A DNA stretch of 64,000 nucleotides from Desulfovibrio sp. Fe33 (lineage in GTDB: Bacteria; Desulfobacterota; Desulfovibrionia; Desulfovibrionales; Desulfovibrionaceae), in assembly GCF_028532725.1 (NCBI RefSeq), contig NZ_JAQKGU010000003.1, forward strand, positions 124,001 through 188,000, in the 5' to 3' direction. The notes under the pieces are model-generated. The model worked only from the letters and a program-made list of their open reading frames with translations. It made no database searches and had not been told where the DNA came from. Below, piece by piece: positions 13,421 through 59,623 of this stretch (positions are counted from its first letter, which is position 1; each line of letters opens with the position of its first letter). The position numbers and the translations under genes were made by a program.

Positions 13421-13444
13421 AAGGTGTTCTGGCGGTTGCAGTGA

Positions 13445-14374: not shown

Positions 14375-14574
14375 TGCCGAATCGGTTTGATACTATTAAA
14401 GTATTGGATGATATCCCGTATAAAAAGGTAATTGCCGCACTGCACGGGAAACAAGCACGATCGCCAGCATCCTTGCTACCAAGGTGAGGGTCAAAGCGCA
14501 ATGGTTCGCATTGACACAGGGTCATGCCCCCATTATGAAAGTGCTTCAATATCGGATTCCAAGGAGAGACATAC

Positions 14575-16241: not shown

Positions 16242-16265
16242 TAAAACCAACCAACGAGGCTACCC

Positions 16266-16541
16266 ATGCTTAAATTTCTTGTCATCGCGGCTGCATTGTT
16301 TCTGGTCTACAAGCTCTTCATGGGCGACAAGCAAAAACGGGAAATGCGAAAGGACAAGTCCATCAAGCAGAAGGTTGCCTCCGGCGAAATGGTCAAGGAC
16401 CCGTCCTGCGGGACCTATGTTGACAAGGATGGAGACATCCGCGTCCGTGAAGGGGACAAGGTCCACGTCTTCTGTTCCTACGAATGCCGTGACAAGTACC
16501 TGAAACGCATCGGCGCATCGGTTCCGAAAGAAGAAGAATAG
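16266..16541 (+). CDS. Small membrane-anchored YHS/TRASH-like protein
   Basis: A 91-aa protein with one N-terminal transmembrane helix (residues 2-18). A cytoplasmic cysteine motif follows: MVKDPSCGTYV, then VHVFCSYECRDKYLKR. The spacing of one Cys in DPxCGxxV and a CxxxC with following aromatic and basic residues is that of PP0621/YHS-TRASH-like metal-binding domains. It may bind a metal ion; no function is established. A GAGG Shine-Dalgarno precedes the ATG, the gap to folK is 24 nt, and a terminator follows, so it closes the dapL-folK operon. Confidence 0.8.
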   Translation: MLKFLVIAAALFLVYKLFMGDKQKREMRKDKSIKQKVASGEMVKDPSCGTYVDKDGDIRVREGDKVHVFCSYECRDKYLKRIGASVPKEEE

Positions 16542-16565
16542 GCTTCCAGACCACATCCTAAAATC

Positions 16566-16591
16566 AAAGGCCCGACTCAGGGCCTTTTTTT
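16566..16591 (+). terminator. Rho-independent terminator of the dapL-folK operon
   Basis: The stem aaaggccc pairs with gggccttt around a 6-nt loop and is followed by a run of T. Confidence 0.88.
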
Positions 16592-17309
16592 ACGCCCTCA
16601 GTCAGCCCTTAAGACGATTTGGCCTCCAAAACGCCCCTTGCCTGCAAGACCCAACAAAACTCGGCTCAGACGAGTTCCCGAAGGCAGGGCGGCTTCCTGT
16701 CGGTTAACGGCTCAATCAAGGGCTAACACGACCTGAAGCAAGGCATCCGCACATGCCAAGACGCGGAGGCTGTCGATGGCGAATCCTTCCCATGCCAAGG
16801 GACCGCCTGGAGCGTGATGTCGACGTCTGTGCCGACTAGGCATTCTTATCCAGATTACGCTCAATACGACCCGCATATAAATTTAGCTCTCAGTTCAGCG
16901 GAGAGCGATTTTCCCTTTCAAAACAATGTCGACATCGGCCGCAACCCCAAAAACGCAGCACAGAGCATTTGTCGCAACCGATCTTTCGTGAAGTCATCAG
17001 TAGGCGACGATGTGACCAACTTACAAAGTGAGCTTTAAGAATTTTAATCTAACTTTCCAGTGTGTTATATATTTGTCTCATAATGTAAATTATGTAAACT
17101 TTTAACAAATAAAGTCCCAAAAGGGACAATCGTAACCGTTCGGATTCACCCTTCGGCTTCTTTGCGGATCAGCAACGAAACGACTCCCAAGCACCTGTCG
17201 GACATTCGAGATGCCGACCAAGGGACCCATTGAGCATTTTTTATGCGGCTGATAATGATGCCCCATCATGAACAGATAAAAAGGCCATTCCGGCCGGATT
17301 CGAGGAACA
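16592..17309. other. Intergenic stretch, no supported gene
   Basis: About 720 bp. Open frames here (for example 16814-17038 +) show no codon pattern or motif I can support. The right part (16850-17110) is AT-rich and may hold the promoter of the TPR gene. A short hairpin (gtccc aaaa gggac) lies near 17112-17125. Confidence 0.5.
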
Positions 17310-19373
17310 ATGAAATCGAGACTCGTATTTTCGCTTCTGGTGGCTTTTTTGGCAGTGGCTGGGCTCAACCCCGCCCATGCCGAAGAAAAACAGTCCTTCG
17401 AGCAATGGCTTGAACACTACCGGGCCTGGGACAGACTGGAAAAGGAATACGCGCACGAGCCCTCCGCCGACACGCCCGAGGCCGTGCTCAAACGCGCTCA
17501 GGTCTATCTGAATCTCAATTCACCAGAGAAAGCCCTTGAACTCATTGAAATGACGCCTGCTTTTACCGGCCAGTCGGAAGCCGACCGTCTGTGGCTCGGA
17601 GGACAAGCCCATCGAGGGCTGGGTGATCTGACCAAAGCCGTACTTTGGTACACTCAAGCCGCCAGGTTCATGCCCGACGAGGAACTCCGCTCCCGTTTCA
17701 AGGCCGAATCGGGCCTGGAGCCCATCTGGCACGATGTATGGCTCAAGATGTACTGGTCCTGGCTTGCCAATCACACCATTTCAAGAGATTCCCAGCGAGA
17801 AGCCCTGGACCTGATAATGGCCGTGGGCATCAAAGTCTGGCCCAACGAATTCTGGAACGGTGTCCATTCTCTCCTTCAGAACCAACCGTTGGCCAATGCC
17901 GCGCCGCCCGCTTCCGCCCTTGTGTCTTCCGCCGATACCATGCTCATCGCCAAGGCCATGGCCTCGATTTCTCTTGAAAAATTCGATGAAGCATCGACTC
18001 ATATCACCAAGCTGTCCAACGAAACAGTCCGCCAGTTCTGGGCTTCGACCCTGTATTTTCTCAATAGCGGCAACACGCCGACAAACATTGATGTTTTCCT
18101 CGAAGGAAACTATCTGAAGGCGTATGCATTCTGGTCGGGCAATGTCCTGGCGCCTTATTCCAAGTCCCGGACCGATTGGTTCCTGGGCAATCCGGACTCC
18201 GCCGCCTGGACAAAATTCCGCAACAACATCCTGAACATGCCCCCGGAAGCGGCGGAAAAAGCTATCGACAACGAGCTGGGCTCCATGCTCATTTCAGAGC
18301 AGACCGCCGCCTTGTTGCGTAATTTCAAGCTCGCCCTGTCTCTTGCCAACGGCAACACCTCTGCTGCGGCAACCACCTGGAACAGCACGGATAAAAGCAC
18401 TTTGCCAATCTGCCTCAGGCTGGCCGGGACCCTGGCCTTCAAGGAAAGCTTGAACAAAGTTCTGCCCGAAAATCCGGGCGAAGCCTTTGCTCTGTACCCG
18501 GTTTTGGCCGCCCTCTCCGGGGCCGCCGGTATGGATGTTCACCCCAAGACCGAAGCCCCCTTCTGGACCGCCGCCCCGCAGGACCAGTTGCAATCCCTTT
18601 CTACCGTCAGGTATCCCCTGGATCGGCTGCTGCTTTTAGCCTATTGGCAGCAACGCTTCACCCAATCTCCGTCCGTTGAACTGGCCAAACGCGGCGCTTA
18701 TCTTTTCGACGACACGTCCTTCGGCATACGCAGCCTGATTCATCTCGCCGACGACGCGGTGAAGAACAAGCAGTTACAACACGGGGCCTTTTATCTGAAC
18801 CGGATAGACGACACCGCCCTGCCACCCGAGTTGCGGATGGCCTGGCTGGATATCAAGACCCGCCTGGAACTGGACGCCGGAAGCCAAGGCAAGGCGCTTG
18901 AGACTTATCAGGACATGGTCAAGACCGATGAACCTATCCCGGTGATGACCCGGCTGCGCATGGCACTTCTTTACCAGCAGCGAAGGGAATATGAGGCTGC
19001 TCAAAAGGAATTGCTGGCCATGTGGGACGCCCGGGCGAGCATGACCACCGCTTTGCAGGCCGAGACCTTGTTCTGGCTCGGCGAGGGCGAACAGGCCATG
19101 CGCAACCCGGATAAGGCCTTGGACTATTACCTCAAATTGGCGTGGCAATATCCCCAGGAAAACATCTGGGCCTTGACCGCCATGTATCGCGCCTCCCTGA
19201 TCTATGAAAAACGGGGCAAATACGAAACCGCCAAAAAGCTGCTCGGAACCGTGGTGCGCAACGCTGCCCGCAAGGAACAGCGAGTCGCCGCCCAAGCCCG
19301 CATCGACGCCATCGACAAGAAGATGGGCGAGGAAAAGAACGAGGGTGAAAGCACGCTGGTCTACCCGTTCTAG
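17310..19373 (+). CDS. Secreted/periplasmic TPR-repeat protein, function unknown
   Basis: A 687-aa protein with a Sec signal peptide (MKSRLVFSLLVAFLAVAGLNPAHA, cleavage after about residue 24). The rest is mainly helical repeats: TPR-like units are clear at about residues 50-110 (AEVLKRAQVYLNLNSPEKALELIE; LWLGGQAHRGLGDLTKAVLWY) and again at about 560-670 (RMALLYQQRREYEAAQKELLAM; LFWLGEGEQAMRNPDKALDYYLKLAWQYP; MYRASLIYEKRGKYETAKKLLGTVV). The middle 350 residues show no motif I know. It resembles outer-membrane assembly or BamD/YbgF-type helper proteins in style only. It is monocistronic, with a GAGGA Shine-Dalgarno before the ATG and a large hairpin after the stop. Confidence 0.75.
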   Translation: MKSRLVFSLLVAFLAVAGLNPAHAEEKQSFEQWLEHYRAWDRLEKEYAHEPSADTPEAVLKRAQVYLNLNSPEKALELIEMTPAFTGQSEADRLWLGGQAHRGLGDLTKAVLWYTQAARFMPDEELRSRFKAESGLEPIWHDVWLKMYWSWLANHTISRDSQREALDLIMAVGIKVWPNEFWNGVHSLLQNQPLANAAPPASALVSSADTMLIAKAMASISLEKFDEASTHITKLSNETVRQFWASTLYFLNSGNTPTNIDVFLEGNYLKAYAFWSGNVLAPYSKSRTDWFLGNPDSAAWTKFRNNILNMPPEAAEKAIDNELGSMLISEQTAALLRNFKLALSLANGNTSAAATTWNSTDKSTLPICLRLAGTLAFKESLNKVLPENPGEAFALYPVLAALSGAAGMDVHPKTEAPFWTAAPQDQLQSLSTVRYPLDRLLLLAYWQQRFTQSPSVELAKRGAYLFDDTSFGIRSLIHLADDAVKNKQLQHGAFYLNRIDDTALPPELRMAWLDIKTRLELDAGSQGKALETYQDMVKTDEPIPVMTRLRMALLYQQRREYEAAQKELLAMWDARASMTTALQAETLFWLGEGEQAMRNPDKALDYYLKLAWQYPQENIWALTAMYRASLIYEKRGKYETAKKLLGTVVRNAARKEQRVAAQARIDAIDKKMGEEKNEGESTLVYPF

Positions 19374-19401
19374 GCGAGACGACCGGACTGACCATTGAAT
19401 C

Positions 19402-19440
19402 GGCCATCGGCAGGGTGCCTTGAGCACCCTGCCGATGGCC
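19402..19440. terminator. Large perfect hairpin after the TPR gene
   Basis: A perfect 17-bp stem (19402-19418 with 19424-19440) with a 5-nt loop. It lacks a T run, so it may act as an mRNA 3'-end stabiliser or a non-canonical terminator. Confidence 0.6.
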
Positions 19441-19930
19441 CTCAGCGTCAACGTCCCGGCTATTTCTCATTGTAACTCTCCGCCCACCTGTCCATAGGCT
19501 CATCCCAGACTCCATGGGTGCAGAGGCCCCCGCTACTCCCCTCCACCTGCCAGACCATTTTGTGTTCGACGGCCTCTCCGGCGAATTCCCCCCGACTAGC
19601 TGCCGCCAATTCCCGAATAACATGGAGACCAACGGCAAATAATGCGTTTGGGAATGAGACTTCATCTCATCCTCGATTTGCCGAAAGTACAGGGTGGCCC
19701 AACGTGGGACATGCAAATCTCAAAACACACGCACATCTTTCATTGAGATCTTCGGACAGGGCATACACATGAAGCTTGACGGCTATAGCCTTAACGAATA
19801 GCCGACTAAGAAAAGGAAAGGGTTGCAACCAACCGGCTGCAACCCTTAATTTTACTCTTTATGGAGAGGTGATACTTGGTATTTATCCGAGCATAGCCCT
19901 ACTCGGCTGATCTTTTGGCCTTCAAGCCCA
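19441..19930. other. Intergenic stretch between the TPR gene and the phosphonate cluster
   Basis: About 490 bp with no supported gene. A hairpin, agggttgca / tgcaaccct, at 19819-19846 lies between two convergent transcription units. It shares its stem sequence with the terminator after tRNA-Leu at 27535-27564. Confidence 0.5.
19817..19855. terminator. Probable terminator, bidirectional
   Basis: A stem of about 10 bp (aagggttgca / tgcaaccctt) with a 10-nt loop is followed by an AT-rich stretch on plus. On minus the stem is followed by ctttcctttt. It can end the operon that finishes at 19931. Confidence 0.65.
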
Positions 19931-20794
19931 CTACCGAATGTACCGCTTTTCATTTTCCTTCATGGCCGCCACGTCCTGCAACCTGAAAATTTCCGTTACC
20001 GGAACAACGTGGCTGTCGGCATTTTGGATACCGCCATCCCGCCGTATCTCGGCAAAGACATCCTGCATCGCCTTGACCGAAGCGCGTATGGCGTGATTGC
20101 CGTATATGACGACGCCGACCTTTCCGGTCCGCTTCATTTTCTCTTCGGTCAACTCGGGATAGCTGGTAGGGATCAGGACCACGGGCACCCGTCCGCTCCA
20201 CTTGTCCAGAAAACCGAGGATTTCATCGGGACTCTTTGATTTGGAGTGCACAAGGATCATATCGGCTCCGGCCTCAACGTAGGCATCGGCGCGGGCCAGA
20301 GCCTCTTCGATCCCCTTTCCCGCAATCAGCGCTTCGGTACGGGCGATTATTACAAAGTCGGGCGATCGCCTGGCTGCGACAGCCGCCTCCACTTTGCCTT
20401 GAAATTCCTGAATGGGAACCAATTCCTGCCGCCCCCCTTTCAAGAGGCTTGTATCCTTCGGGAACTTCTTGTCTTCCATGACGACCGCTGCCGCCCCAGC
20501 CTGCTCGTAGGCGCTGACCACATGCATTACATTGATGGCATTGCCGTACCCTGTGTCGATGTCGGCAATAATGGGTATCGACACTTGCGAAGCCATGGCC
20601 CGTGTGTTGTCGAGATGCTGCGTCAACGACAGCAGGCTGGCGTCAGGGATGCCGTATGCCGCCGACAGCTCAAAACCGCTCGCCCAAATCCCATTAAATC
20701 CGGCCTCTTCGGCAAGCTTGGCGGAAAGGGGGTTATGCGCGGCCATCGCATGAAAAATGCCGTTCTGCTCTATGATGCTTTTAATTCTGTTCAT
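19931..20794 (-). CDS. palA: Phosphonopyruvate hydrolase-like enzyme (PEP mutase / isocitrate lyase superfamily)
   Basis: A 287-aa TIM-barrel protein. Seen directly: the metal and substrate residues D78 and D80 (IIADIDTGYGN), the gating loop E107-D108-K109 ... F111-P112-K113-D114-T115-S116, R152 (IIARTEA) and NHAIRAS near the end. Known of the family: PEP mutases carry Asn at the loop position held here by T115 (EDKxxxxxNS), whereas phosphonopyruvate hydrolase (PalA of Variovorax sp. Pal2) carries Thr. I therefore infer hydrolysis of 3-phosphonopyruvate to pyruvate and phosphate rather than phosphonate synthesis. The context agrees: an aminotransferase lies 14 nt upstream, then an ABC importer, and a divergent LysR regulator, while phosphonopyruvate decarboxylase (needed with PEP mutase) is absent. 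Last gene of the operon. Confidence 0.75.
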   Translation of the reverse strand: MNRIKSIIEQNGIFHAMAAHNPLSAKLAEEAGFNGIWASGFELSAAYGIPDASLLSLTQHLDNTRAMASQVSIPIIADIDTGYGNAINVMHVVSAYEQAGAAAVVMEDKKFPKDTSLLKGGRQELVPIQEFQGKVEAAVAARRSPDFVIIARTEALIAGKGIEEALARADAYVEAGADMILVHSKSKSPDEILGFLDKWSGRVPVVLIPTSYPELTEEKMKRTGKVGVVIYGNHAIRASVKAMQDVFAEIRRDGGIQNADSHVVPVTEIFRLQDVAAMKENEKRYIR

Positions 20795-20807
20795 AATGGC
20801 CCTCCCG

Positions 20808-22010
20808 TTATTTCAACTCGGCGCAGGACGCTTCTATCCGGTCGATTCCCTTGGAAAGGTTCTCCAGGGAAGCGGCGCAGGAAATCCTGAAATGCCCGGG
20901 AGCGAAGAACGCCGAACCCGGTACAACGGCGACGCCCGCCGATTCCATGAAGTGCATCCCAAGCTCTATGTCATTGGCTATGGTTTCGCCTTCAGGCGTC
21001 TTTTTACCGATCAAATCGGAACAATCGACAAAGACATAAAAGGAACCGCTCGGCATCGAACAATTCAACCCGTCTATCTTGTTGATTCTTTCGACTGTAA
21101 ACTGGATTCGCCGATAGTAATCCTCGATGAACTGAGTGATGTGCTCCTGCGGACCGTTGAGCGCCTCGATTGCGGCCACCTGCGAAATGGAGCAGGCATG
21201 GGATGTCGTTTGGGACTGGACCAGATTCATCGTTTTTATCAGATGCGCCGGACCCGCGCCGTATCCTACCCGCCAACCCGTCATGCAGTATGTCTTCGAA
21301 AGACTGTTGACCACCAGGCAGCGATCGGCCAAATCAGGCGCGACTTCGGCCATGGTGGCGAATCGGGTCCCGGGATAGGTAAATTTTTCGTATACATCGT
21401 CAGACATGACGGAGACATGGGGATAGCGCCGAAGCAGCTCGGCGATGATCTTGAGGTCCCCTTCCTGATACACCGCGCCCGACGGATTGTTGGGCGAATT
21501 GAATATGATCCATTTTGTCCGGTCTGTAATTTTGGCTTCAAGCTCTTGGGGATCAAGCAGATAGGAATTATCCTTGCGGCATTCCACGAAAATCGGAGTT
21601 CCCCCTGCGAGTGAAACCATATCGGGATAGGACACCCAGCACGGCGTGGGGATCAGGACCTCGTCCCCCTTGTCCAGGGTCGCCACCAGGGCGTTGTACA
21701 ACACCTGCTTGGCGCCCGTGCCGACCGTTATCTGGTCGGGCGTGTACCTGAGGTTGTTATCCTTCGCCAATTTGTCGCATATGGCTTCCCGAAGAGGGAG
21801 AATGCCGGGGACGGAGGTGTATCGAGTATGCCCTTCACGCATAGCCCTTTCTCCCGCATCGATGATGTTCATGGGAGTATCGTAGTCGGGTTCGCCGAGG
21901 CTGAGGGAAATGACTTCCCGCCCCTGCGCGTTCAGGTTGGCGGCGATCTGTGCGATCGCCTTGGTCTGGGAAGGCTTCACGTTGGCCAATTTTTTCGCGA
22001 TATTGATCAT
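20808..22010 (-). CDS. palB: Class I/II PLP aminotransferase, probable phosphonoalanine transaminase
   Basis: A 400-aa aspartate/aromatic-type (subgroup I gamma) aminotransferase. Visible: SLGEPDYDTP, YTSVPGILPLREAI, GTGAKQVLYNALVATLDKGDEV, NSPNNPSGAV, SDDVYEKFTY, the PLP lysine in NSLSKTYCMTGWRVGYGAGP, and HFRISCA with the Arg that binds the substrate alpha-carboxylate. By family alone it would be called aspartate aminotransferase. Being only 14 nt upstream of the phosphonopyruvate-hydrolase-like gene, I infer that it transaminates L-phosphonoalanine to phosphonopyruvate (a structural analogue of aspartate to oxaloacetate), as PalB is proposed to do in Variovorax. Confidence 0.72.
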   Translation of the reverse strand: MINIAKKLANVKPSQTKAIAQIAANLNAQGREVISLSLGEPDYDTPMNIIDAGERAMREGHTRYTSVPGILPLREAICDKLAKDNNLRYTPDQITVGTGAKQVLYNALVATLDKGDEVLIPTPCWVSYPDMVSLAGGTPIFVECRKDNSYLLDPQELEAKITDRTKWIIFNSPNNPSGAVYQEGDLKIIAELLRRYPHVSVMSDDVYEKFTYPGTRFATMAEVAPDLADRCLVVNSLSKTYCMTGWRVGYGAGPAHLIKTMNLVQSQTTSHACSISQVAAIEALNGPQEHITQFIEDYYRRIQFTVERINKIDGLNCSMPSGSFYVFVDCSDLIGKKTPEGETIANDIELGMHFMESAGVAVVPGSAFFAPGHFRISCAASLENLSKGIDRIEASCAELK

Positions 22011-22152: not shown

Positions 22153-23127
22153 TTATTTGGAAGCGAGCGCATCCTTCCAGATCTTGATGACCTTGTCCTT
22201 TTCGGCTCCGGCCTGCTGCTGATCAACGGGGAAGACCTTGATGTCCTTCATGTTGGGAAGCGCCGAAGATGCGGAGACATCGACATCGGCTCTCGTAGGT
22301 CTTCTGAAGCTCTTCTCGAAAATCGTCTGCTGAGCCTCTTTGGACATCATGATATCAAACAGCTTCTTCGCGTTTTCGGCATGGGGCGCGCCCTTGATGA
22401 TGAACATGCCTTCGGGAGACAGGAACGTTCCTTCCTCGGGGTACACAAGCTTGATGGAACGCTGTCCGCTGGCCACATAGCGATAAGCGGCGTATTCAAT
22501 CGTGACGCCGATCGGATATTCACCCTGGGCCACGCCCTTGTAGACGCTGCTGGAACCACCGGTGACCGTGACGCGCTTCGCCAGTTTTTTCACGCCCTCT
22601 TCACCGTACTTCTTGTAAATGCCGTAAAGCTGAAGATAGGCGGAACTGGATGCGGACGGATCGGCAAAGGCTATTCTGTCCTCGCCTGCACCGTTGAGAA
22701 TGTCGTCCCAGCCCTTGGGCATTTCCCCTTTGACCTGATCTTTGTTGACCATCAAAACGACCACATGGACATTGGTGCCGAGCCATTTGCCGTCAGGTCC
22801 GCGCAGAGATTCAGGGACGGTTTTCCCCTGTTCGGAATCATACGATTCCGCCATGTCGACGTAACCGGCGAGGGTGCCGAAACCGCTGCTCCAAAAGACA
22901 TCACCGCTCGGCGCACCCTTTTCCGCGACAACGCGCTGAAGCAATACGCCAGTTTTTCCTCTGATGACGTTCACATGCATATCCGGGGCCTGCTTTTTGA
23001 CCGTTTCGAGAATGACCTGAACGGAGTCTTCGCTATTGGTAGCGTAAAGCGTCACATCTTCCCCGGCGCGGGCTTGCGTTGCGAACGCCGCAAGGCAAAC
23101 AAGAAAGGCGGCTAACAACTTTTTCAT
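22153..23127 (-). CDS. ABC transporter periplasmic substrate-binding protein (iron/aminoethylphosphonate type)
   Basis: A 324-aa protein with a Sec signal peptide (MKKLLAAFLVCLAAFATQARA). The mature part is a class II (Fbp/AfuA-like) binding fold: VTLYATNSEDSVQVILETVKKQAPDMHVNVIRGKTGVLLQRVVAEKGAPSGDVFWSSG, then TGGSSSVYKGVAQGEYPIGVTIEYAAY. Tyrosine-rich iron ligands of true ferric-binding proteins are not obvious, and the G(K/R)TG and TGGSSS loops would suit an oxyanion. The same family includes 2-aminoethylphosphonate binders (PhnS). With its neighbours I infer binding of phosphonoalanine or a related phosphonate. Confidence 0.82.
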   Translation of the reverse strand: MKKLLAAFLVCLAAFATQARAGEDVTLYATNSEDSVQVILETVKKQAPDMHVNVIRGKTGVLLQRVVAEKGAPSGDVFWSSGFGTLAGYVDMAESYDSEQGKTVPESLRGPDGKWLGTNVHVVVLMVNKDQVKGEMPKGWDDILNGAGEDRIAFADPSASSSAYLQLYGIYKKYGEEGVKKLAKRVTVTGGSSSVYKGVAQGEYPIGVTIEYAAYRYVASGQRSIKLVYPEEGTFLSPEGMFIIKGAPHAENAKKLFDIMMSKEAQQTIFEKSFRRPTRADVDVSASSALPNMKDIKVFPVDQQQAGAEKDKVIKIWKDALASK

Positions 23128-23165
23128 TGGAATCTCCTTTTGCTCTTTTTCAATTATTTTAGGGG

Positions 23166-24824
23166 TTATTTAAACAATTCCACTTTAGTGAATTTGGTGA
23201 CCAGGAAAATGGGCGTCAGAATAAGGACGATCATGACCACTCCATAAGCGGAGGCTTGCGCCATGAGATCGCTGTCGATCAAATTGTAGATTTTTATGGG
23301 CAATGTTTCCTGGCTGGGGTGATACAGCAGGAGTGTCGACGCCAGTTCCGCCATGGTCATCGCCCACATCAGAACCGCGGCGGAAGTAATGCCGGGGGCC
23401 ATGAGCGGGGCAACCACCTTCCGGAAGCTCTTCATCGGAGAGGTGCCGAGGCTGATGGCGGCCTCCTCTATCGAGTCGGGTATGTTGAACAAGTTGGCGG
23501 AAGCATTTCTGACGGAAAACGGCAGTCGCCGGAGGGTCAACGCCAAAACCATAATGATGGGAGTGCCGGTTAACGGAATCAATCCCGCATTGAAGGTTTG
23601 AGAAAGGGCTATCCCCAGCACGGTTCCGAAAATGGCCATCGGAAGCATGACCATGAAATCAAGGGCTTCGGTCAATGCATTTTTCTTCTTGATGATCAGA
23701 TAGGAAGCAGTCGTGCCGAATACGACGCCCAAGACCGTTGCCGAAAATGCGTATGAAATGGAATTGACTATGATTTCCACTCCATAATCGGCTACGTTGG
23801 CGAAATGTTTCAGGGTGAAATGGCCCCAATGCATCACCGGCCCGGTGGAATCGGTGATCGAACCGGCCAAGACAAGCCCGAGGGGAAGCAGCGTCACAGC
23901 CAAAAGGGCAAGCACGGCCACATACGCGGCAACGCCCCATGCTCCTTTGATCGGAAGCGCTTTCATGGAGCGGCCCTGCCTCATTTCAAAACGCGATTTT
24001 CCGACAAACCGCTTCTGAACGAACAGAATCAACCCGACGAGGACTATGGAAATGGTTGCCAATGCGCTCTGCATCAAAGGATTCAAGCCTACCTCGCTGA
24101 GAAAGCTGTTGTAGGTCATAACCGACAGGAGCGGGACGCTCGGTCCCAGTATGATCGCGATCGAGAAATTTCCCAAAACGAGAGTGAACACAACAAGAGC
24201 GCTGGAGAGAATTGCCGGCGCCATCAGCGGGACCATGGTCCTGATCCGTGCGGAAATCGGCGATCGGCCCAAACTTTGCGCGGCCTCCTCCAGTTGAACG
24301 TCGAAGCTCCTCAAAGCTGCGAGAGACGCCATATACACATGAACATAATAAGTAATGGCCATGACGAAGATCAGCCCGGTCCACCCGTAAAATCGAGGGG
24401 CCCTGATGCCCAATTCGAGCAGCATCTGCGTAACGAACCCATTGTAGCCGAAAACAAGCAGCCAGGATTGAGTGGTAATCAATTCCGGAATAATAACGAC
24501 GGTAATCGGCAGGATGCTCAACAAGGATTTGAAAGGGAAATCATAGTAAACGGTGACATAGGCAAGAGGCACACCGATAAGGACGGTTACGACGGTAACG
24601 GCGGCCGCAAGAAACAAGGAGTTGAAGAGACCTTGGAGGTAATCCCCTTCCGTAAAGAAAATCTTAAACCCTTCCAGAGTTAATGCCCCGTCGGCATTCT
24701 GAAGGCTCGCCAGAATCACCTTGAAGATCGGCAGGAGCAGAAACACTGCCAGGAAAAGGCAGGAAAGAAGGGTCAGGGCTCCCCAAGGCATGAATTTATT
24801 CATCGTCCTTAGCTCCTGACACAC
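23166..24824 (-). CDS. ABC transporter permease with two fused membrane domains
   Basis: A 552-aa inner-membrane protein with about 12 transmembrane helices. It has two tandem BPD-type permease domains, each with an EAA loop: the first is LEEAAQSLGRSPISARIRTMVPLMAP (about residue 175-200), the second IEEAAISLGTSPMKSFRKVVAPLMAP (about residue 450-475). This fused form is the FbpB/AfuB and PhnU/V-like arrangement, in which one polypeptide replaces the permease dimer. It overlaps the ATPase gene by 16 nt and is followed by the binding protein gene. Confidence 0.9.
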   Translation of the reverse strand: MCQELRTMNKFMPWGALTLLSCLFLAVFLLLPIFKVILASLQNADGALTLEGFKIFFTEGDYLQGLFNSLFLAAAVTVVTVLIGVPLAYVTVYYDFPFKSLLSILPITVVIIPELITTQSWLLVFGYNGFVTQMLLELGIRAPRFYGWTGLIFVMAITYYVHVYMASLAALRSFDVQLEEAAQSLGRSPISARIRTMVPLMAPAILSSALVVFTLVLGNFSIAIILGPSVPLLSVMTYNSFLSEVGLNPLMQSALATISIVLVGLILFVQKRFVGKSRFEMRQGRSMKALPIKGAWGVAAYVAVLALLAVTLLPLGLVLAGSITDSTGPVMHWGHFTLKHFANVADYGVEIIVNSISYAFSATVLGVVFGTTASYLIIKKKNALTEALDFMVMLPMAIFGTVLGIALSQTFNAGLIPLTGTPIIMVLALTLRRLPFSVRNASANLFNIPDSIEEAAISLGTSPMKSFRKVVAPLMAPGITSAAVLMWAMTMAELASTLLLYHPSQETLPIKIYNLIDSDLMAQASAYGVVMIVLILTPIFLVTKFTKVELFK

Positions 24825-51665: not shown

Positions 51666-52051
51666 GGGGGCGCACTGGTTTCGACGGGGATAGTTGAAGC
51701 CGAAGCTGCAGGTCGAGGTTGGTCGATGGCCTCGTTAAAATCGACCACAAAGATAATTGCCAACGACAATTACGAATACGCAATGGCTGCTTAATTGCAG
51801 AGTTGCACCTGACAACATAGCTTGTCACGATTCACTCGCCGACGCCTTATAAGCGGGCTGAGTCGTCAAAACATAAGGCTAGCACGTGGAGGTTCGTTCC
51901 TTACCGAAGCTGCGAAACACTCAAAGGTTCTAGTTCGATGGCCGTCCGGCCCGGAGCAAGCCATCGAGCGAAACCTTAATCCGGACCTAAACCTGTAGAC
52001 GCTTTCGCGGATCGTTCTCGGACGGGAGTTCGACTCTCCCCGCCTCCACCA
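51666..52051 (+). ncRNA. ssrA: Transfer-messenger RNA (tmRNA)
   Basis: A 386-nt tmRNA. The 5' end GGGGGCG pairs with the 3' CGCCTCC before A-CCA, and the tRNA-like GTTCGACTCTCCCCGCCTCCACCA end is present. The opening ggcgcactggtttcgacgggg is a tmRNA hallmark. The tag reading frame is 51759-51794 and encodes ANDNYEYAMAA then TAA, ending in the usual protease-recognised AA. The 3' end is the insertion site of the adjacent island. The hairpin that now follows (52056-52081) has no T run. Confidence 0.97.
52031..52051. repeat. Island attachment site, left (attL core)
   Basis: These 21 bp are the 3' end of ssrA and are repeated exactly at 59603-59623. The direct repeat bounds a 7.5-kb AT-rich segment that begins with an integrase gene. 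Confidence 0.93.
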
Positions 52052-52135: not shown

Positions 52136-52147
52136 ATGAGGATAGCT

Positions 52148-53887
52148 ATGAGCCTTTTTTTGTGCCTTCAGGGCCACACCTATCACTATCGAAAAGTCAT
52201 TCCGATTGCCCTTCGCCCCTATTTGGGAAAACGAGAGATCAAGAAAAGCCTTGAAACTGGGAATAAACTTGAAGCGAGGGGCAAGGCTTTGTTATTAGCT
52301 GTAAAAGTTGAAAGAGCTATAACTCAATCGAGAAAAACAATGAGTGACAAATCCCTTTCCAAATCTGAAAAAACAGCTCTCATAGCTGAGTATTTCCATT
52401 TCCTTTTAATGCTGCAAGACAGGCACCTTGATAGGGATTATGCTGATTATCCAATTATGAGAATGCTAGAAAAAGAAATGGGGTTAAATGTTCAACCCAA
52501 CATTGATGCCCTAAAATATAGCGAAGAATATTCCTTAGAAGACTCGCAATATCTTCATAAGAAGAGGGATTATGAACAGATTAAAACACTGATGCCTGCC
52601 TGTGCTTGTATTAATGGAAAAACAATTACTGAAGCAGATTTGACTGGCAGTTTTCTTCAAGCTCTTTCTTTGGCTCAAATTGATGCAAACAAGCTGATAT
52701 GCGCGAGGAAGAACGGAGAGAATCCTCCTATTCCCAGTCAATACGATTTAGACCCAATTGCCGAGGCCCACGACCCAATCCCTAAGTCTCACAGCACAGA
52801 GCCTTCCGTACCTTTTAAACAAGTCATTGAAGAATACACAAAGGACAGGCTTGCAATAGGTAAATGGACAGACAAAACGAAAGACGAAAACCATGCTTTA
52901 TATAACAATTTCATAGACTTTGCAGGGACTACAATCACTTGCGCTGAAATCAACTATCATCTTATCAGCGACTTTCGTGAAGCGTTGAAAAAACTTCCAG
53001 TCAATCGCAATAAATTCTCAAAATATAGGAATAAAACGATTTCTCAACTTATTGAAATGGATGTAGAAAAAACAATATCTACGACAACAGTCAACAAGAA
53101 CCTTAACAGGTTATCTACTCTGCTAAAATTTGCTGTAAAACTCGGCTACATGCCAAACAACCCCGCTGAAGGCATGGAAATACCAGTCGATCAAAAAGAC
53201 TCTGAGCAACGAGAAGTATTTTCAAACGCCGACTTGCAAAAACTATTCAATTCTTCCCAGTACATAGCAGATAATTTTGCACATGCCTTTATGTTCTGGT
53301 TTTGTCCGATCGCCCTTTTTACAGGAATGAGACAAACAGAAATAGCACAACTCCATTTGTCTGATATTTATCAAAAAGATGGAGTTTGGGTTATTGATGT
53401 TAATGACGACTCAAAGAACAAAAAGATAAAAAACAAAAACGCAAGGCGGCTTATCCCGCTTCATTCATTTTTATCGACAGGGCTGAACCTGCCAAACTAT
53501 GCCGCACACTTAAAAAGCAATGGGTATGACCGCTTATTCCCTGAACTCTCATATGGGCGTGATGGATACGGGCAAGCGGTTAGTCGCTGGTTCAATGGTC
53601 ATGGTGATGGCGTCACTAATGGCTACAAAAAAGCTTGTGGCATTAAGGGACAAAAGAAAGTCTTTCACTCATTTAGACACACGCTCATTAATCACCTGAA
53701 ACAAAAACAAGTCGATCAACTCTTGCTTCATGAATTTGACGGTCATTCCCACGGCACTATGACTTTAGACCGATACGGTAAGGCGTACACTCCTCAACTC
53801 ATGTACGATCAAATTGTGAGCCAGATAACATTCGACAAGGAATTGGACCTGGGCCACCTGATGAAGTCTAAATTTGTTTTAGATTGA
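52148..53887 (+). CDS. Tyrosine-type site-specific integrase of the island
   Basis: A phage-type integrase of about 579 aa. The N-terminal part (LFLCLQGHTYHYRKVIPIALRPYLGKREIKKSLETGNKLEARGKAL) is the DUF6538-like arm-binding domain. A SAM-like core-binding domain lies at about 210-320. The catalytic domain has Arg in LFTGMRQTEIAQL, a Lys-rich beta hairpin (NDDSKNKKIKNKNARRLIPLH), HSFRHTLINHL, and GHSHGTMTLDRYGKAY with the nucleophilic Tyr. It would integrate the island at ssrA and, with help, excise it. The ATG at 52148 has a GAGGA site; an ATG at 52136 is also in frame. Strongly AT-rich compared with the chromosome. Confidence 0.93.
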   Translation: MSLFLCLQGHTYHYRKVIPIALRPYLGKREIKKSLETGNKLEARGKALLLAVKVERAITQSRKTMSDKSLSKSEKTALIAEYFHFLLMLQDRHLDRDYADYPIMRMLEKEMGLNVQPNIDALKYSEEYSLEDSQYLHKKRDYEQIKTLMPACACINGKTITEADLTGSFLQALSLAQIDANKLICARKNGENPPIPSQYDLDPIAEAHDPIPKSHSTEPSVPFKQVIEEYTKDRLAIGKWTDKTKDENHALYNNFIDFAGTTITCAEINYHLISDFREALKKLPVNRNKFSKYRNKTISQLIEMDVEKTISTTTVNKNLNRLSTLLKFAVKLGYMPNNPAEGMEIPVDQKDSEQREVFSNADLQKLFNSSQYIADNFAHAFMFWFCPIALFTGMRQTEIAQLHLSDIYQKDGVWVIDVNDDSKNKKIKNKNARRLIPLHSFLSTGLNLPNYAAHLKSNGYDRLFPELSYGRDGYGQAVSRWFNGHGDGVTNGYKKACGIKGQKKVFHSFRHTLINHLKQKQVDQLLLHEFDGHSHGTMTLDRYGKAYTPQLMYDQIVSQITFDKELDLGHLMKSKFVLD

Positions 53888-54077: not shown

Positions 54078-54410
54078 CTACCTGAGGTTTCCATCAAAAT
54101 ACATATCTATTAATTTTGTATAATCATCTCCGATCATAAGTAATTTAATTTTACAGTCATATACAAATTTAGTGTAGCCATTATAACCTCCTAGCGAATT
54201 TTTGCCATCAAACTCGCCTCGTACAATATATGTTTGTGTTGATCTCCAGTATCCTTTTTCAATATTTCTAAATTTTGCCGATTCAGGATCTTTTAATCTC
54301 TCCCTTACAGCGTCTTTAGCTTCTTCTAAACTTGGACTATACAATGTGTCACAAGCTTGCAAACACCCAATCATAAAAAAAACGAGAATCAAACAACTCA
54401 CCCTGCGCAT
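54078..54410 (-). CDS. Small lipoprotein of the island
   Basis: A 110-aa lipoprotein: signal MRRVSCLILVFFMIGCLQAC with a lipobox (LQAC), then SPSLEEAKDAVRERLKDPESAKFRNI and VRGEFDGKNSLGGYNGYTKFVYD. This AVxxxLKDPxSAKFR...GxxNxKNSxGGYxG pattern is a widespread small exported family often found on phages and islands; no function is established. Superinfection exclusion is one idea but unproven. An AAGGAG Shine-Dalgarno precedes the ATG. Confidence 0.8.
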   Translation of the reverse strand: MRRVSCLILVFFMIGCLQACDTLYSPSLEEAKDAVRERLKDPESAKFRNIEKGYWRSTQTYIVRGEFDGKNSLGGYNGYTKFVYDCKIKLLMIGDDYTKLIDMYFDGNLR

Positions 54411-54612: not shown

Positions 54613-54948
54613 TTAATCATTTGAAACCGCCTCAACTTCTGAGCCACAATGTTTGCATTTAACTGCCTTCGCCTTAATCAATTCAGCACAGTGAGGACAT
54701 TCTCTTTCATCGGACAAATCGGTCCGTGTTATGGGTTCAGGATGCTTGTCTGCATTTACTCGTTTTTTTGACCTCATCCGACTTCCCAAACCAACTAAAA
54801 TCAAGCCCGGAAATACGAAAACTAGCATATTAAACATTAACCCCATTGTTAATATGCCAGACGCCCCTGAAGTCCACGGCATACCAACAATGTTCCCGCC
54901 CCCTATAAGTGCCCAAATCCCTCCAATAACGATCAAAAGCGTTCCCAT
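54613..54948 (-). CDS. Membrane protein with C-terminal zinc ribbon
   Basis: A protein of about 111 aa: two transmembrane helices (about residues 2-24 and 33-57), a basic linker (GSRMRSKKR) and a zinc ribbon with two CxxC knuckles (CPHCAELIKAKAVKCKHCG). I choose the start at 54948 because an AGGAGGA Shine-Dalgarno lies 6 nt upstream; the longer frame to 55143 shows no family sequence. Such helix-plus-ribbon proteins are common on mobile elements and have no assigned role. Confidence 0.75.
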   Translation of the reverse strand: MGTLLIVIGGIWALIGGGNIVGMPWTSGASGILTMGLMFNMLVFVFPGLILVGLGSRMRSKKRVNADKHPEPITRTDLSDERECPHCAELIKAKAVKCKHCGSEVEAVSND

Positions 54949-54968
54949 TGTTCCTCCTATTTTTCTAC

Positions 54969-55023
54969 GTTCAGTATCCATATCTTTAATAGTCAAGTGT
55001 GTAAACACGGATAGATACTGAAC
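54969..55023. promoter_or_regulatory. Inverted repeat in the leader of the zinc-ribbon gene
   Basis: A perfect 10-bp inverted repeat (gttcagtatc / gatactgaac, 54969-54978 with 55014-55023) encloses a smaller palindrome gtgtgtaaacac. It lies 20-75 nt upstream of the gene start and could be an operator or an mRNA leader structure. Confidence 0.5.
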
Positions 55024-55428
55024 TTCAAAACTCTGAAAAAATCTGTGTCCAAGTCTCTGAGCGCATAGAAGGCACTGGGTACTCAAAGATTCAAACGAGG
55101 GGGGGCATGGTGGACCTCGGCTCTCTGTTTTTTCTCGTTTCAATAAATTCAGATGGTTACCCTAAAAGTCCTATATATCCAATCTCTCAAATAAATTTAA
55201 GGCGTTTTAGGTCTGTTCTGGTAGGTGGATACCATTTTAGCTCTAGGATGCGTCTACGCTCTAAGTTTATCCTTACAACGGGGCTTTCAAGGCACGTTTG
55301 GATTGCTTCCCTACCCTATTCTTTCCCTTCACTGAATTTGTCTCAATAGAGTGTACCCAACTGATACACGATCGGCCCCCCTGAAAAGCAAGGGTTTTCG
55401 TGTAACTTTAAGGTTGATTTTTATTTTG
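55024..55428. other. Gap between the zinc-ribbon gene and the serine recombinase
   Basis: About 400 bp with no supported gene; open frames here lack Shine-Dalgarno sites and motifs. Confidence 0.45.
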
Positions 55429-55457
55429 TTGACACAATTCTCATTTAGGTCTAAATC
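55429..55457 (+). promoter_or_regulatory. Probable sigma-70 promoter of the serine recombinase gene
   Basis: TTGACA (55429-55434) and TAAATC (55452-55457) are 17 nt apart, 46 nt before the chosen ATG. Confidence 0.6.
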
Positions 55458-55502
55458 TATTTGCAACAGATAGAAGCAATCAACCCCACGGAGATCGTCA
55501 GC

Positions 55503-56054
55503 ATGAGCAAGCATATTGGTTATATCAGAGTCAGCACGTTAGATCAGAACACAGAGCGTCAACTTGATGGCGTTAAACTCGACAAGGTGTATGAGGAAAA
55601 GATCAGCGGAGCGACCACACAGCGGCCCCAGCTCCAAGCTTGTCTGGATTATCTGAGAGACTCCGACTTTCTCCATATTCATTCAATGGACCGCCTTGCG
55701 CGAAGCATGAGAGACATTGAAGACCTCGTGAAGGAACTCACCGAAAGAGGCGTGACAGTTCAATTTCACAAGGAAGGATGGATATTCAACGGAAAGATGG
55801 ATGCAACTCAAACGCTCCTCTTCCAGATGCTCGGTGCTGTCTCGCAATTTGAGCGGTCTATCATCCGAGAGAGACAGGCAGAAGGGATTGCAAAGGCAAA
55901 AGCCAAGGGGAAGTACAAGGGCAGGAAGCCCAAGCTCTCTGAGGAGGAAATAAGCGAGATCAGGCGGCGCAGTGAGGAAGGCGAGGAAAAGAAGACGCTA
56001 GCTGAGGAATTCGGGATTAGTAGGCAGACTCTCTACAGGCTTATCAAGGTTTAA
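55503..56054 (+). CDS. Serine recombinase (resolvase/invertase family)
   Basis: A 183-aa protein. The catalytic Ser is S11 in YIRVSTLDQN. The catalytic core continues with FLHIHSMDRLARSMRDIEDLV and FQMLGAVSQFERSIIRERQAEGIAKAK, and a C-terminal HTH binds DNA (KLSEEEISEIRRRSEEGEEKKTLAEEFGISRQTLYRLIKV). It is of the Hin/Tn3-resolvase size. Its role on the island may be inversion, resolution of dimers or a second mode of movement. A GGAG Shine-Dalgarno supports the ATG at 55503. No obvious invertible segment is seen nearby. Confidence 0.93.
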   Translation: MSKHIGYIRVSTLDQNTERQLDGVKLDKVYEEKISGATTQRPQLQACLDYLRDSDFLHIHSMDRLARSMRDIEDLVKELTERGVTVQFHKEGWIFNGKMDATQTLLFQMLGAVSQFERSIIRERQAEGIAKAKAKGKYKGRKPKLSEEEISEIRRRSEEGEEKKTLAEEFGISRQTLYRLIKV

Positions 56055-56074
56055 CAAGATATGAATCAACTCCC

Positions 56075-56104
56075 AAAGGCCCATGTAACAGTGGGCTTTT
56101 CTTT
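56075..56104 (+). terminator. Terminator after the serine recombinase
   Basis: The stem aaggccca / tgggcttt is followed by tctttg. Confidence 0.7.
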
Positions 56105-56152
56105 GCTTCTTTCTATCTTGGCGTGTATCTGAATTTTGGAGGTCAAATAGCA

Positions 56153-57187
56153 ATGGCAGAATGGTCAAGAGAAGAGGTTACAGCAACGGTCCGTGACTAT
56201 CTGGAAATGCTCCAGGCTGAATTGAACGGGGAGAAGTATGTCAAAGCTCATCATCGAAAAGAGCTATTGAAATTTCTGGAAGATCGCACAAACGGAGCAG
56301 TTGAACGCAAGCACCAGAATATCAGCGCAGTTCTTCGCAAGCATGGCTATCCCTTTATTGAAGGGTATAAGCCTTTAAGTGCATATCAAGGGCTTTTGGA
56401 AGAGGTTGTTTTAGAAGAATTGAGCAAACAAGGAATTAATCGCTCATATCCTCAAACCTACCGTTCCTGGACAATCCTTTCACTTTCGTTAGCGACCAAG
56501 CAAATGGACAAGTCCTCATTTTTGCATCATGGCACAGGGGTTCCAAAGGAATTTGCCTACTTTTTCGAGTTCAATCCAAAAATGGAAAGTCGAGAAGTTA
56601 TTCTTGCCCATCGGGGTGTTGAATACTTTGCAAGCCTATACCCTGACCCAAAGGACCGGATTAGGCTGTTATGGCGTTCTGATTTCTCAACTGTTATCGA
56701 AACAACCTTCCCTTCATATTTTGAGAGATTCAGTGCTGACCTATCTGTGCCTTTGCCTCCCCACATGAAATTTGTGAAAGAGCGTTCTGACGTTTATCAA
56801 ATCAGCTTCGTTGTCCCAAATGAAGATGAATCGGACCAAGAGCAAAATGATATTCCTAGTCCGACACAAGGCAGAAATGAAGGGGCAAAAATATCATATC
56901 AGGCAACCCGATATGAAAGAAACCCTCAAAACCGCCTAGAAGCTATCAGGATTCATGGAACTAAGTGTTCTGTGTGCGGGATGGACTTTGGAGAAAAGTA
57001 TGGAACCTGGGGCGAGGGTTTTATTGAGATTCACCACGTTACCCCGTTGGCTATGGGAGAGGCTGAACAAGAAGTGAACCCAGCAACAGATCTGGTTCCT
57101 GTTTGCTCCAATTGCCATAGAATGATTCACCGTCATGGCAAGGTTTTATCAATTGCAGCCGCTAGAGACCTATTAGAGAAAAAATAG
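56153..57187 (+). CDS. HNH endonuclease (McrA-like), possible restriction enzyme
   Basis: A 344-aa protein. Residues 1-110 (MAEWSREEVTATVRDYLEMLQAELNGEKYVKAHHRKELLKFLEDRTNGAVERKHQNISAVLRKHGYPFIEGYKPL) form a conserved N-terminal domain found in many stand-alone HNH restriction-like proteins. The C-terminal HNH domain has CSVCGMDFG, EIHHVTPLAMGE, LVPVCSNCHRMIHR, that is, two zinc CxxC knuckles around the catalytic His. No methyltransferase is encoded next to it, so if it is a restriction enzyme it is likely to be type IV (acting on modified DNA). This is inference. A GGAGG site 11 nt upstream supports the ATG at 56153. AT-rich. Confidence 0.85.
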   Translation: MAEWSREEVTATVRDYLEMLQAELNGEKYVKAHHRKELLKFLEDRTNGAVERKHQNISAVLRKHGYPFIEGYKPLSAYQGLLEEVVLEELSKQGINRSYPQTYRSWTILSLSLATKQMDKSSFLHHGTGVPKEFAYFFEFNPKMESREVILAHRGVEYFASLYPDPKDRIRLLWRSDFSTVIETTFPSYFERFSADLSVPLPPHMKFVKERSDVYQISFVVPNEDESDQEQNDIPSPTQGRNEGAKISYQATRYERNPQNRLEAIRIHGTKCSVCGMDFGEKYGTWGEGFIEIHHVTPLAMGEAEQEVNPATDLVPVCSNCHRMIHRHGKVLSIAAARDLLEKK

Positions 57188-57486
57188 AGTACAGGGGAGC
57201 AAATCAAAACGAGCAAAAGAATAAGGTCATTTCAACCATTTAAAGGTCATAATTCCCAAAGCTCTTTAACATGCTGCAACTAATTGATATTTATTGTTAA
57301 TATTCAGTCGGGTTACGCTTGAATTAGATATGGTATCAAGTAAATCAGACACAAAAAACTCAAAATCGTAATACGTTTTGTAATACGTTTTTGATCTATG
57401 CTCTTTAGGAATTCTCAAGCATAAACGGATTGGACAAGAGAATAGGCTTACTTTGAGCGACTCGCAGGAATTCTGTCCAGTTCAAG
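57188..57486. other. Gap between convergent HNH and polymerase-like genes
   Basis: 300 bp, AT-rich, no gene. Near 57370-57393 the 12-mer gtaatacgtttt occurs twice in tandem, 14 nt apart. Confidence 0.5.
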
Positions 57487-58929
57487 CTAACCAATTCCAA
57501 TGGTGTTATTTGTTTTGAGCACACGCTGATACTCTTCAAGCATTTTTTGCCGTAATAGTTCCTCATCTTCTTCCCAGACAATGAAACTATCGTGAATGGG
57601 GAGACAGGGCTTTCCTTCCTTCGTGAAAAATTTAAGGATATTCGATGCAATGCAGCTATCAATGTTTTGTAGTCTTGTGCCGACTCCAGAAAAGAACCAA
57701 TTCGCTATTGGTGAGTGTAGTTCCTTCAGCCCATCGAAAATTGTACCAATTTCTTCAGTTGTTAGATTTTTCAAAAAACCTTTACTATCATAAATTTTAT
57801 CCCTAAAGGCTTTTTGGGCTTCATCATTATCTTCTGAATTGAACACTATGAGCATTGCCACTTTGCATTCATTTCGCCAATGTTCATAGCCTTTGATTGT
57901 ATATGCATCACCCTCAAAGGGCTTATTGTTAGAACGGGCATATAGCATATTGGCATGTAGGCAGTTGTAATCCAGCTCAACTGTTTTTTTGCCATCAATT
58001 AGAATGTATTCACGAAGTTTCAAAGGGTTGCCATCGGCCCCAAGCCTTCGGTTGTACAAGCACTGGGTAAAATGTCCATAAAACCTGCCTCCGTGGGTAA
58101 AGTTAGTATTGTCAATTTTATTGAAAACCCTCCTAACTTGACCAAAGGCAAAGGTGTCAGCATTGTCAAAGGCACACTGTTCATATGCGGCTTTTTTGAA
58201 ATCAGGCATCTTATCCATTGTAAACTCAAATTGAGACAAGAGTTGATTGTATTCTCTTATGAATTTCTCTTCCTTCTCAATGTTGATACGATAAGAAAGT
58301 CCTAATCCAGTATGACTCACCTTTGGTTTTATTTCATAATACTTTATTGCCTTCACTGACTTTGACTTTCTTTCTCTTCTTTCTCCATCTTTTTTCATTT
58401 TTCCGGTTTTCTTCTTCTCAACTATTTTTTCATGCACATAGATTGGATCAATTTCAGGTCTTAGTTGAACCCTTCCAATAAGAGAATTCAAATATTCTAA
58501 CTTGAAATTTTCGGTTAGAGTTATGATTGTGCATTTCCCTTTCTTAACATCATATTCTGAGAAAAAATTATTATGGCCTTTACGAATCTGAAAAAAGCCA
58601 GAATCTGCCAACTTGTTTACAATTTGAATTATATCCTTACTAAAACCGAGAGGATTATAAGCATTAGATTTGACCCAATAATTAGATGCAAATGGGATAA
58701 TTATTCCTTCATTAGATTTAGAATAACAATAAATGAAATTTAGTAATAATTGTTCCAATGCTAAATTTATTCTTGTTTGAGGCTTTATATTTGAGAAATC
58801 TATTTGAGAACAAATACTTTGAATAAAATTATCAACAAAATATTTATCAGAATCTTCACAAATATACTTTCTAATCCAAATAGATTTTATTTCATCAAAA
58901 CTATTCAATTTAATATCATCAACAGACAC
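57487..58929 (-). CDS. Uncharacterised protein with wHTH-like N-terminus and family-A-polymerase-like C-terminus
   Basis: A 480-aa protein. Residues 55-150 look like a winged helix (FSKDIIQIVNKLADSGFFQIRKG, then a beta wing), as in replication initiators. A Lys-rich linker (168-195) follows. The C-terminal half carries, in the order found in family-A DNA polymerases and T7-like RNA polymerases: GGRFYG (280-285, like the TGR/RGR loop), VELDYNCLHANMLYA (317-331, motif A with D320), R352-x3-K356 (like the O-helix R...K), and PCLPIHDSFIVWEED (441-455, motif C with H446-D447). No 3'-5' exonuclease motifs are seen. The start is GTG with GGAG at 58938-58941. The assignment as a polymerase is inference from motifs; it might instead be a replication or defence protein that has lost catalysis. 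Confidence 0.6.
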   Translation of the reverse strand: MSVDDIKLNSFDEIKSIWIRKYICEDSDKYFVDNFIQSICSQIDFSNIKPQTRINLALEQLLLNFIYCYSKSNEGIIIPFASNYWVKSNAYNPLGFSKDIIQIVNKLADSGFFQIRKGHNNFFSEYDVKKGKCTIITLTENFKLEYLNSLIGRVQLRPEIDPIYVHEKIVEKKKTGKMKKDGERRERKSKSVKAIKYYEIKPKVSHTGLGLSYRINIEKEEKFIREYNQLLSQFEFTMDKMPDFKKAAYEQCAFDNADTFAFGQVRRVFNKIDNTNFTHGGRFYGHFTQCLYNRRLGADGNPLKLREYILIDGKKTVELDYNCLHANMLYARSNNKPFEGDAYTIKGYEHWRNECKVAMLIVFNSEDNDEAQKAFRDKIYDSKGFLKNLTTEEIGTIFDGLKELHSPIANWFFSGVGTRLQNIDSCIASNILKFFTKEGKPCLPIHDSFIVWEEDEELLRQKMLEEYQRVLKTNNTIGIG

Positions 58930-59145
58930 TATAATAACTCCAATATATAACTAGTATAAAGTAAAAGAAGAAAGAAGAAACAATTCTATCATTAGCGGGA
59001 GAAAAGCCCAGAAAGCCTTTAATAGCAACAGAATCTTTGTCTCAAGCTTAAATTTGCATAATTAATAAAACTGTTAATAATATAATAAAACCATAAAGCA
59101 AATAAGACTTCTTCTGGCAAAGTCAAGAGGATGACTGGGTAGTTA
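58930..59145. other. AT-rich leader of the polymerase-like gene
   Basis: About 215 bp, very AT-rich, no gene; it should hold the promoter of the minus-strand gene. Confidence 0.4.
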
Positions 59146-59367
59146 CTACGGTCGACAAATACCACAAGGCTTGAACCCATCATTTATTGCATCATTTCTG
59201 CTTGAAAATACTACAGTGCAATTCTTACAGTTGAAGTACCAACATTCTTTTCTGTGAAAGACATGGGAACTCCTGTTGCCGTGGTACAGTCCTGAATCTG
59301 CTTGGAGCGTTGTTCTTGATTCTGAGAGGCTCTTGCCGTTTTTCCGGTATTCCCCGGCGGTATCGGG
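59146..59367 (-). pseudogene. Remnant of an Ada-type zinc-binding small protein
   Basis: On the minus strand a 73-codon frame is open between two stops and has no ATG, GTG or TTG start. Its end reads YHGNRSSHVFHRKECWYF, then NCKNCTVVFSSRNDAI and GFKPCGICRP, the four-cysteine pattern of the Ada metal-binding domain, which occurs in small exported Desulfovibrio proteins and at the end of some nucleases. The upstream part that should hold a start or signal peptide is missing or out of frame, so I call it a 5'-truncated gene. GC content is higher than in the rest of the island. Confidence 0.55.
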
Positions 59368-59602: not shown

Positions 59603-59623
59603 CGACTCTCCCCGCCTCCACCA
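59603..59623. repeat. Island attachment site, right (attR core)
   Basis: Exact 21-bp copy of the ssrA 3' end including CCA. The GC-rich backbone resumes right after it. Confidence 0.93.

Follow-up and report, generated by a model that had tools for sequence, protein, structure and literature searches.

What a polymerase-like gene does on a small integrative island is the question raised by positions 57487..58929 of the 64,000-nucleotide stretch of Desulfovibrio sp. Fe33 analysed here (hereafter, the window). The sequence-only reading of this gene proposed a divergent family-A-type polymerase, fused to a winged-helix domain and carried by a mobile island, that may replicate the island, prime synthesis, or act in defence. 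The gene encodes an intact and probably active polymerase (P0001; Table 1), and its family had already been described in outline.

Table 1. Features of the polymerase gene and its island, in window coordinates.
Feature	Position	Strand	Remarks
TV-Pol-like polymerase, 480 aa (P0001)	57487..58929	-	open frame
SD-like GGAG	58938..58941	-	8 nt ahead of polymerase GTG start
N-terminal domain, residues 20-162, predicted winged helix	58444..58872	-	separate AF2 model pLDDT 85.6, pTM 0.79, and fold lists
Template hairpin, palm and fingers, polymerase residues 266-480	57490..58134	-	R282, D320, H325, D341, R352, K356, N364, H446, D447
tmRNA gene, integration target	51666..52051	+	
attL, last 21 nt of tmRNA	52031..52051	+	
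attR, exact copy of the 21 nt	59603..59623	+	
Tyrosine recombinase with DUF6538, element integrase	52136..53887	+	Pfam
110-aa ORF, no family match	54078..54410	-	
ORF with zinc-ribbon end	54613..55143	-	match below curated cut-off
Gamma-delta-type serine resolvase, 183 aa from ATG	55503..56054 (frame listed from 55461)	+	Pfam Resolvase and HTH_7
HNH endonuclease, PDC-S36-type N-terminus, 344 aa from ATG	56153..57187 (frame listed from 56123)	+	candidate defence cargo
Block 90% identical in G047 island (resolvase and flank)	55036..56180		G047 is another genus of the same family
Block 90% identical in same G047 island (polymerase and upstream region)	57428..59163		

The motifs on which this proposal was built are found at the residues it gave. 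Their ordered pattern occurred in none of 20,000 shuffles of the protein, in 26/30 rows of alignment A1, gathered without motif patterns and including P0001 and its 89% relative, and in 89/100 rows of A2, gathered with an HDSF-containing pattern, so that conservation at residues 446-451 in A2 is partly circular. The product was also said to lack an exonuclease, and family scans and model features agree. P0001 belongs to phrog_4756 (E 3.4e-50), a PHROGs family whose function is not named. Pfam and PADLOC gave nothing for P0001, NCBIfam one chance row, and a PDB sequence search two chance rows only. DNA_pol_A (PF00476) did not match P0001 at E ≤ 1, and it is not one of the five families to which at least one of 100 members had a match at E ≤ 0.01. 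In a profile comparison by hhalign, the family and the PolA of relatives reached E 0.13, which is not significant, though D320 was placed on the Asp of DYSQIE. With T7 DNA polymerase, hhalign gave a chance stretch only.

A fold search with the model of P0001, proposed at the outset as a check, found as best solved matches family-A DNA polymerases and the yeast mitochondrial RNA polymerase, over about 230-270 residues, and the best 50 PDB matches listed by Foldseek were all family-A DNA polymerases. Together with the nearly invariant D320 and D447, these matches of the predicted structure support a family-A-type palm. A winged-helix-like N-terminus was predicted as well, by a separate AF2 model of residues 20-162 and its fold lists. 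A PDB search with the A2 profile gave three rows of E 0.16-1, in which the N-terminus is aligned to S19 and PadR-type winged-helix proteins. A winged-helix fold for this previously unassigned domain, as modelled, would be new as far as our searches reach.

The catalytic residues are nearly invariant. In A1, R282, R352, and K356 are present in 30/30 rows, D320, D447, and H325 in 29/30, and H446 and N364 in 28/30; in A2, the counts are 100/100 for R282, R352, and K356, 99/100 for D320 and for D447 (the latter within the partly circular stretch), 98/100 for N364, 96/100 for D341, and 94/100 for H325. The bulky H325 is aligned, by a non-significant hhalign comparison, to the DNA-polymerase gate Glu of DYSQIE, where T7 RNA polymerase has Gly by motif spacing. 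N364 is an Asn eight residues past K356, where T7 RNA polymerase has Tyr by spacing. The gate His and this Asn distinguish the family from Pol I as well as from T7 RNA polymerase. Going by the general role of steric gates, a bulky gate such as H325 may favour dNTPs.

These residues bear on a rather unlikely alternative, namely that the enzyme is an RNA polymerase that, as T7-like enzymes do, transcribes the element or phage or makes RNA primers on it. With T7-like and mitochondrial single-subunit RNA polymerases it shares the palm fold and the HDSF motif C, and hhalign of the family against T7 RNA polymerase reached E 0.036, over HDSF. However, P0001 has no match to Pfam RNA_pol (PF00940, matched by 1/100 members at E 0.0061), the best 50 Foldseek matches listed are DNA polymerases, and the position that is Gly in T7 RNA polymerase is His in 94/100 A2 rows, on an hhalign basis that is itself non-significant.

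The sequence-only reading mentioned similar unannotated proteins on bacterial mobile elements but no named activity. That point needs updating, since the features and neighbourhoods of P0001 fit the TV-Pols of Iyer et al. (2008) and its phage relatives were named divPolA2 in 2024. TV-Pols are recognised by a thumb made of two antiparallel helices, followed by a hairpin whose Arg is absolutely conserved, by a palm with two metal-binding Asp, and by fingers that bear a conserved Asp and RxxxK; they were predicted to have primase plus polymerase activity, and a subset has an N-terminal domain and lies beside a gamma-delta resolvase, lambda-type integrase, or transposase (Iyer, Abhiman, and Aravind 2008, PMC2579912). 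P0001 has the hairpin (model strands 266-273 and 276-284, with R282 invariant in A1 and A2), the two nearly invariant palm Asp (D320 and D447), the fingers D341 with RxxxK (R352 and K356, conserved in A2), and no exonuclease, and both a resolvase and an integrase lie on its island. Two helices (217-231 and 242-252) are predicted ahead of the hairpin and may correspond to the TV-Pol thumb. It differs in that the TV-Pol N-terminal domain was called uncharacterised and predicted to be all-helical (PMC2579912), whereas that of P0001 models as a winged helix, and in that no D5 helicase was found on the island. No strong direct sequence match between the family and a named TV-Pol was obtained. A plain HMM of the family found no TV-Pol in phage Ma-LMM01; hhalign aligned frame 22749-24293 of that record, with E 0.0052 and 78 columns that span hairpin, motif A, and RxxxK; this frame was second best by E-value among the frames of at least 200 aa, and we infer it to be the phage's TV-Pol. 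Plasmid searches with three family members returned three different plasmids in total, none from a species named by Iyer et al.

In the part of the 2024 paper considered here, divPolA2 is described from barbaviruses and other phages, with an unassigned N-terminal domain and proposed roles in repair or as an RNA polymerase; the phages also have another DNA polymerase, and the gene neighbourhoods are variable (Yutin et al. 2024, PMC11348598). P0001 shares with the divPolA2 so described the palm with intact motifs, the N-terminal globular domain, and the lack of a 3' exonuclease, and tblastn places the two in the same sequence family (115 Rheinheimera phage records, E about 2e-7 among the matches listed). 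The term TV-Pol occurs once in PMC11348598, in its Background, and the examined portion of PMC5512222 holds nothing on the family. Among open-licence papers, none was found that joins TV-Pol, divPolA2, phrog_4756, satellites, and Shango islands, and none reporting an activity for the winged-helix polymerase subfamily; the polymerase joins two published names, TV-Pol and divPolA2, that are not equated in the papers, or parts of papers, examined. A third comparison is with CCPol of SCC elements, which is placed in the TV-Pols and, in the parts of the reports covered here, primes DNA de novo bound to MP (PMC7581432, PMC10061031), a partner it requires for priming (PMC10061031). Like P0001, the CCPol of these accounts is a family-A palm on an element with a recombinase and conflict genes; unlike P0001, it keeps part of a 3'-5' exonuclease domain, is without the N-terminal domain of many TV-Pols, and is encoded in an operon that also holds a helicase and a small OB-fold partner (PMC7581432, PMC10061031). 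The six scanned ORFs of the P0001 island include no helicase family, and the 110-aa ORF, considered as a small partner of this kind, has no family match.

Among the genomes of the class that were searched, 37/348 have phrog_4756, as do 0/14 control genomes. By tblastn, 243/50,697 phage records contain relatives, most of them from phages of Rheinheimera (115) or Vibrio (102), and some records have them at two or three places. Scans of genome_contigs and viral_contigs with P0001 alone confirmed no relative; A1-guided profile scans confirmed 217/249 pattern matches in genome_contigs (80 kept) and 65/78 in viral_contigs. In a quick tree of 100 rows, in which P0001 occupies a long branch whose exact placement is unsure, virus and genome labels need 10 changes versus about 30 in shuffles, so the viral and genomic polymerases appear clustered yet intermixed more than once. 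A Pseudodesulfovibrio genome carries two distinct family members side by side (L067, 7668-9035 and 9284-10618). In viral contigs (L143-L183, many from ~90 kb records), the polymerase is often at or near the start of a rightward gene run that begins just past a switch from leftward genes, a placement that might befit an early gene or one sited at an origin.

The placement of the polymerase on a mobile island holds: 21-nt att repeats enclose the integrase, two small ORFs, the resolvase, the HNH gene, and the polymerase, and the island has a GC content of 0.35-0.45 per 2-kb interval versus mostly 0.50-0.60 elsewhere in the 64 kb. At one of 15 tmRNA loci (G006), the right-flank gene has a 70%-identical counterpart some 0.7 kb beyond the tmRNA, and this locus looks like an empty integration site. 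Pfam recognised no helicase, DnaG, or Rep family in the island's six scanned ORFs, no SSB-like partner was recognised on the island, and the region upstream of the polymerase showed no iterons or origin, with short chance-like repeats only. By its domains, the HNH gene is a candidate type IV-like restriction gene; its 66%-identical counterpart in another genome (G020) contains a stop codon.

Integration genes accompany the family more widely. In 50/81 bacterial and 6/65 viral loci, the polymerase has an integrase-like cluster no more than 6 kb away, clusters being built by single linkage from the ORFs of a simple caller; of the 65 members of the integrase cluster, no single seed directly matched more than 24. 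The random-place expectation is ~5%, an arithmetic figure from 253 integrase matches (Pfam) in 21 genomes of the window's relatives, whereas the 81 loci are mostly from other groups and were counted by clusters. A resolvase-like cluster is near the polymerase in 13/81 bacterial and 4/65 viral loci, and the next cluster in 8/81 bacterial loci. Flanking direct repeats were found at 27/138 polymerase loci (9/147 loci, under 6 kb, being left out) versus 54/551 control intervals of the same loci, only about twofold, with the control intervals often inside the same islands. Of the 27 loci with repeats, 22 are bacterial; leaving out L067 and L120, the repeats overlap a tRNA or tmRNA gene in 15/20 (13/18 by ARAGORN, plus the window and G047), and some short ones may reflect likeness between tRNAs.

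Small capsid-bearing elements also carry the polymerase. Contig L129 is probably a 9.8-kb circle, because its ends share an exact 127-bp repeat and a capsid gene runs off both. Among its 12 other ORFs of at least 100 aa are matches to capsid, protease, portal, head-completion, terminase, and HNH families, and none to a replication family. Its neighbours in the tree include L130 and L134, which match capsid or connector and terminase families, and the 10.2-kb Paracoccus contig L120, which has exact 88-bp end repeats and portal and adaptor matches; L126, at the base of the group, has capsid and terminase. By gene content, these five contigs (about 10 kb) look like capsid-forming satellites, and a link between TV-Pol, divPolA2, and small capsid circles has no precedent that our searches found. 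In the same tree group, the plasmid-like contig L142 (99-bp exact ends) encodes RepA and ParA besides the polymerase, which is therefore not the only replication gene in every case.

Phages and circles pull in different directions on the unlikely view that the gene is an accessory one whose product serves in repair or in translesion/gap-filling synthesis. The copies in phages occur beside a main polymerase and in variable neighbourhoods (PMC11348598, in the part considered), and for these reasons a divPolA2-type enzyme is probably not the main replicase of phages with another DNA polymerase; the two or three polymerase places in some phage records also fit repair. Against it stand the frequent link to integrases and att sites in bacterial loci and L129, a small capsid element with no other recognised replication gene.

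A second island, in G047, sharpens the comparison. It contains both 90%-identical blocks of Table 1, and the HNH gene between resolvase and polymerase is gone except for its first codons. This island lies at tRNA-Ser(GGA), with the tRNA end duplicated, its integrase is only 23% identical to that of the window, and the genes SngA, SngB, and SngC of a Shango defence system lie inside it (L191, 10233-16049). Because the blocks are 90% identical while integrase, target, and cargo differ, the resolvase-polymerase unit is, on sequence comparison, common to unlike islands; its sharing between unlike defence-bearing islands is new within the scope of our searches. Transfer of the unit as such would be the simplest reading; the other is that integrase and cargo were swapped around it. 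dN/dS is about 0.22 for the polymerase and about 0.09 for the resolvase, that is, purifying selection. A viral contig (L159, G348) holds three 100%-identical 3,347-bp units (10092-13438, 13439-16785, and 18098-21444), each a tyrosine recombinase (Pfam E 6e-37) plus a TV-Pol; two abut head to tail, and the units are flanked by about 93-bp imperfect copies of the unit start. This is a possible two-gene mobile element, or may be an assembly effect.

Some reverse transcriptases act in anti-phage defence, and membership of an anti-phage defence system is an improbable reading that the cargo of both islands brings up. The polymerase adjoins the HNH gene with its PDC-S36-type N-terminus in the window and lies near Shango genes in G047, but these defence genes differ while resolvase and polymerase stay, PADLOC has no defence-system match for the polymerase, and its relatives are common in phages themselves. 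That P0001 is a non-enzymatic or decaying relic, as its distance from any characterised enzyme and the lack of an assay in the literature found might suggest, is very improbable in view of its dN/dS and its nearly invariant catalytic residues.

On balance, we lean narrowly towards a TV-Pol-type enzyme that starts and/or extends strands on the excised element and thereby serves to maintain and copy it; the polymerase is most likely the element's own primase-polymerase. The reaction can be rationalized as follows. (i) The integrase would excise the island as a circle. (ii) The winged-helix part and a basic linker may hold the polymerase on element DNA. (iii) The predicted family-A palm lies behind the winged-helix domain, has no exonuclease, and keeps its catalytic residues intact; it would start and/or extend DNA strands on the circle, presumably from dNTPs, with help from the host helicase and replisome. 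(iv) The element would be kept and copied as a result, and the resolvase may resolve multimers or move the resolvase-polymerase unit. Several observations, read from sequences or models, argue for element replication: the intact, conserved catalytic motifs, palm fold, purifying selection, and att repeats with an integrase; integrase proximity in 50/81 bacterial loci and repeats on tRNA or tmRNA genes in 15/20; the 90%-identical unit in the G047 island at tRNA-Ser; and an island with no recognised helicase, DnaG, or Rep, together with L129 and its lack of another replication family. Priming is supported by CCPol, in Iyer's TV-Pol group, which primes de novo as CCPol-MP in the parts of the reports considered (PMC7581432, PMC10061031). 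Points against element replication are that open-licence papers gave no activity in print for the subfamily, that no helicase or SSB-like partner was recognised on the island where CCPol needs MP, that no iterons or origin were seen upstream, that an integrase-like cluster is near only 6/65 viral loci, that the phage members described in print are probably not the main replicase, that L142 has other replication genes as well, and that the comparison with PolA is not significant. Of the three roles proposed at the outset, copying or priming the element has better support than defence.

As a rule, family-A DNA polymerases act by extending primers. A broader proposal is tentative and, we think, possible rather than probable: the winged-helix-tethered family-A palm would be the self-contained replication starter of a large hidden class of minimal mobile elements, comprising 3-4 kb recombinase-plus-polymerase units that hop between integrase islands with swappable defence genes, 10-kb capsid circles that resemble satellites of phages, and insertions of a selfish kind in large phages; TV-Pol (2008) and divPolA2 (2024) would then be one and the same family. 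CCPol-MP, in the part of the report considered, shows that a mobile-element family-A polymerase is able to start strands (PMC7581432). A lineage fused to a winged helix would offer compact primase-polymerases that can be put to the test, and it could account for the self-copying of small islands and satellite-like circles.
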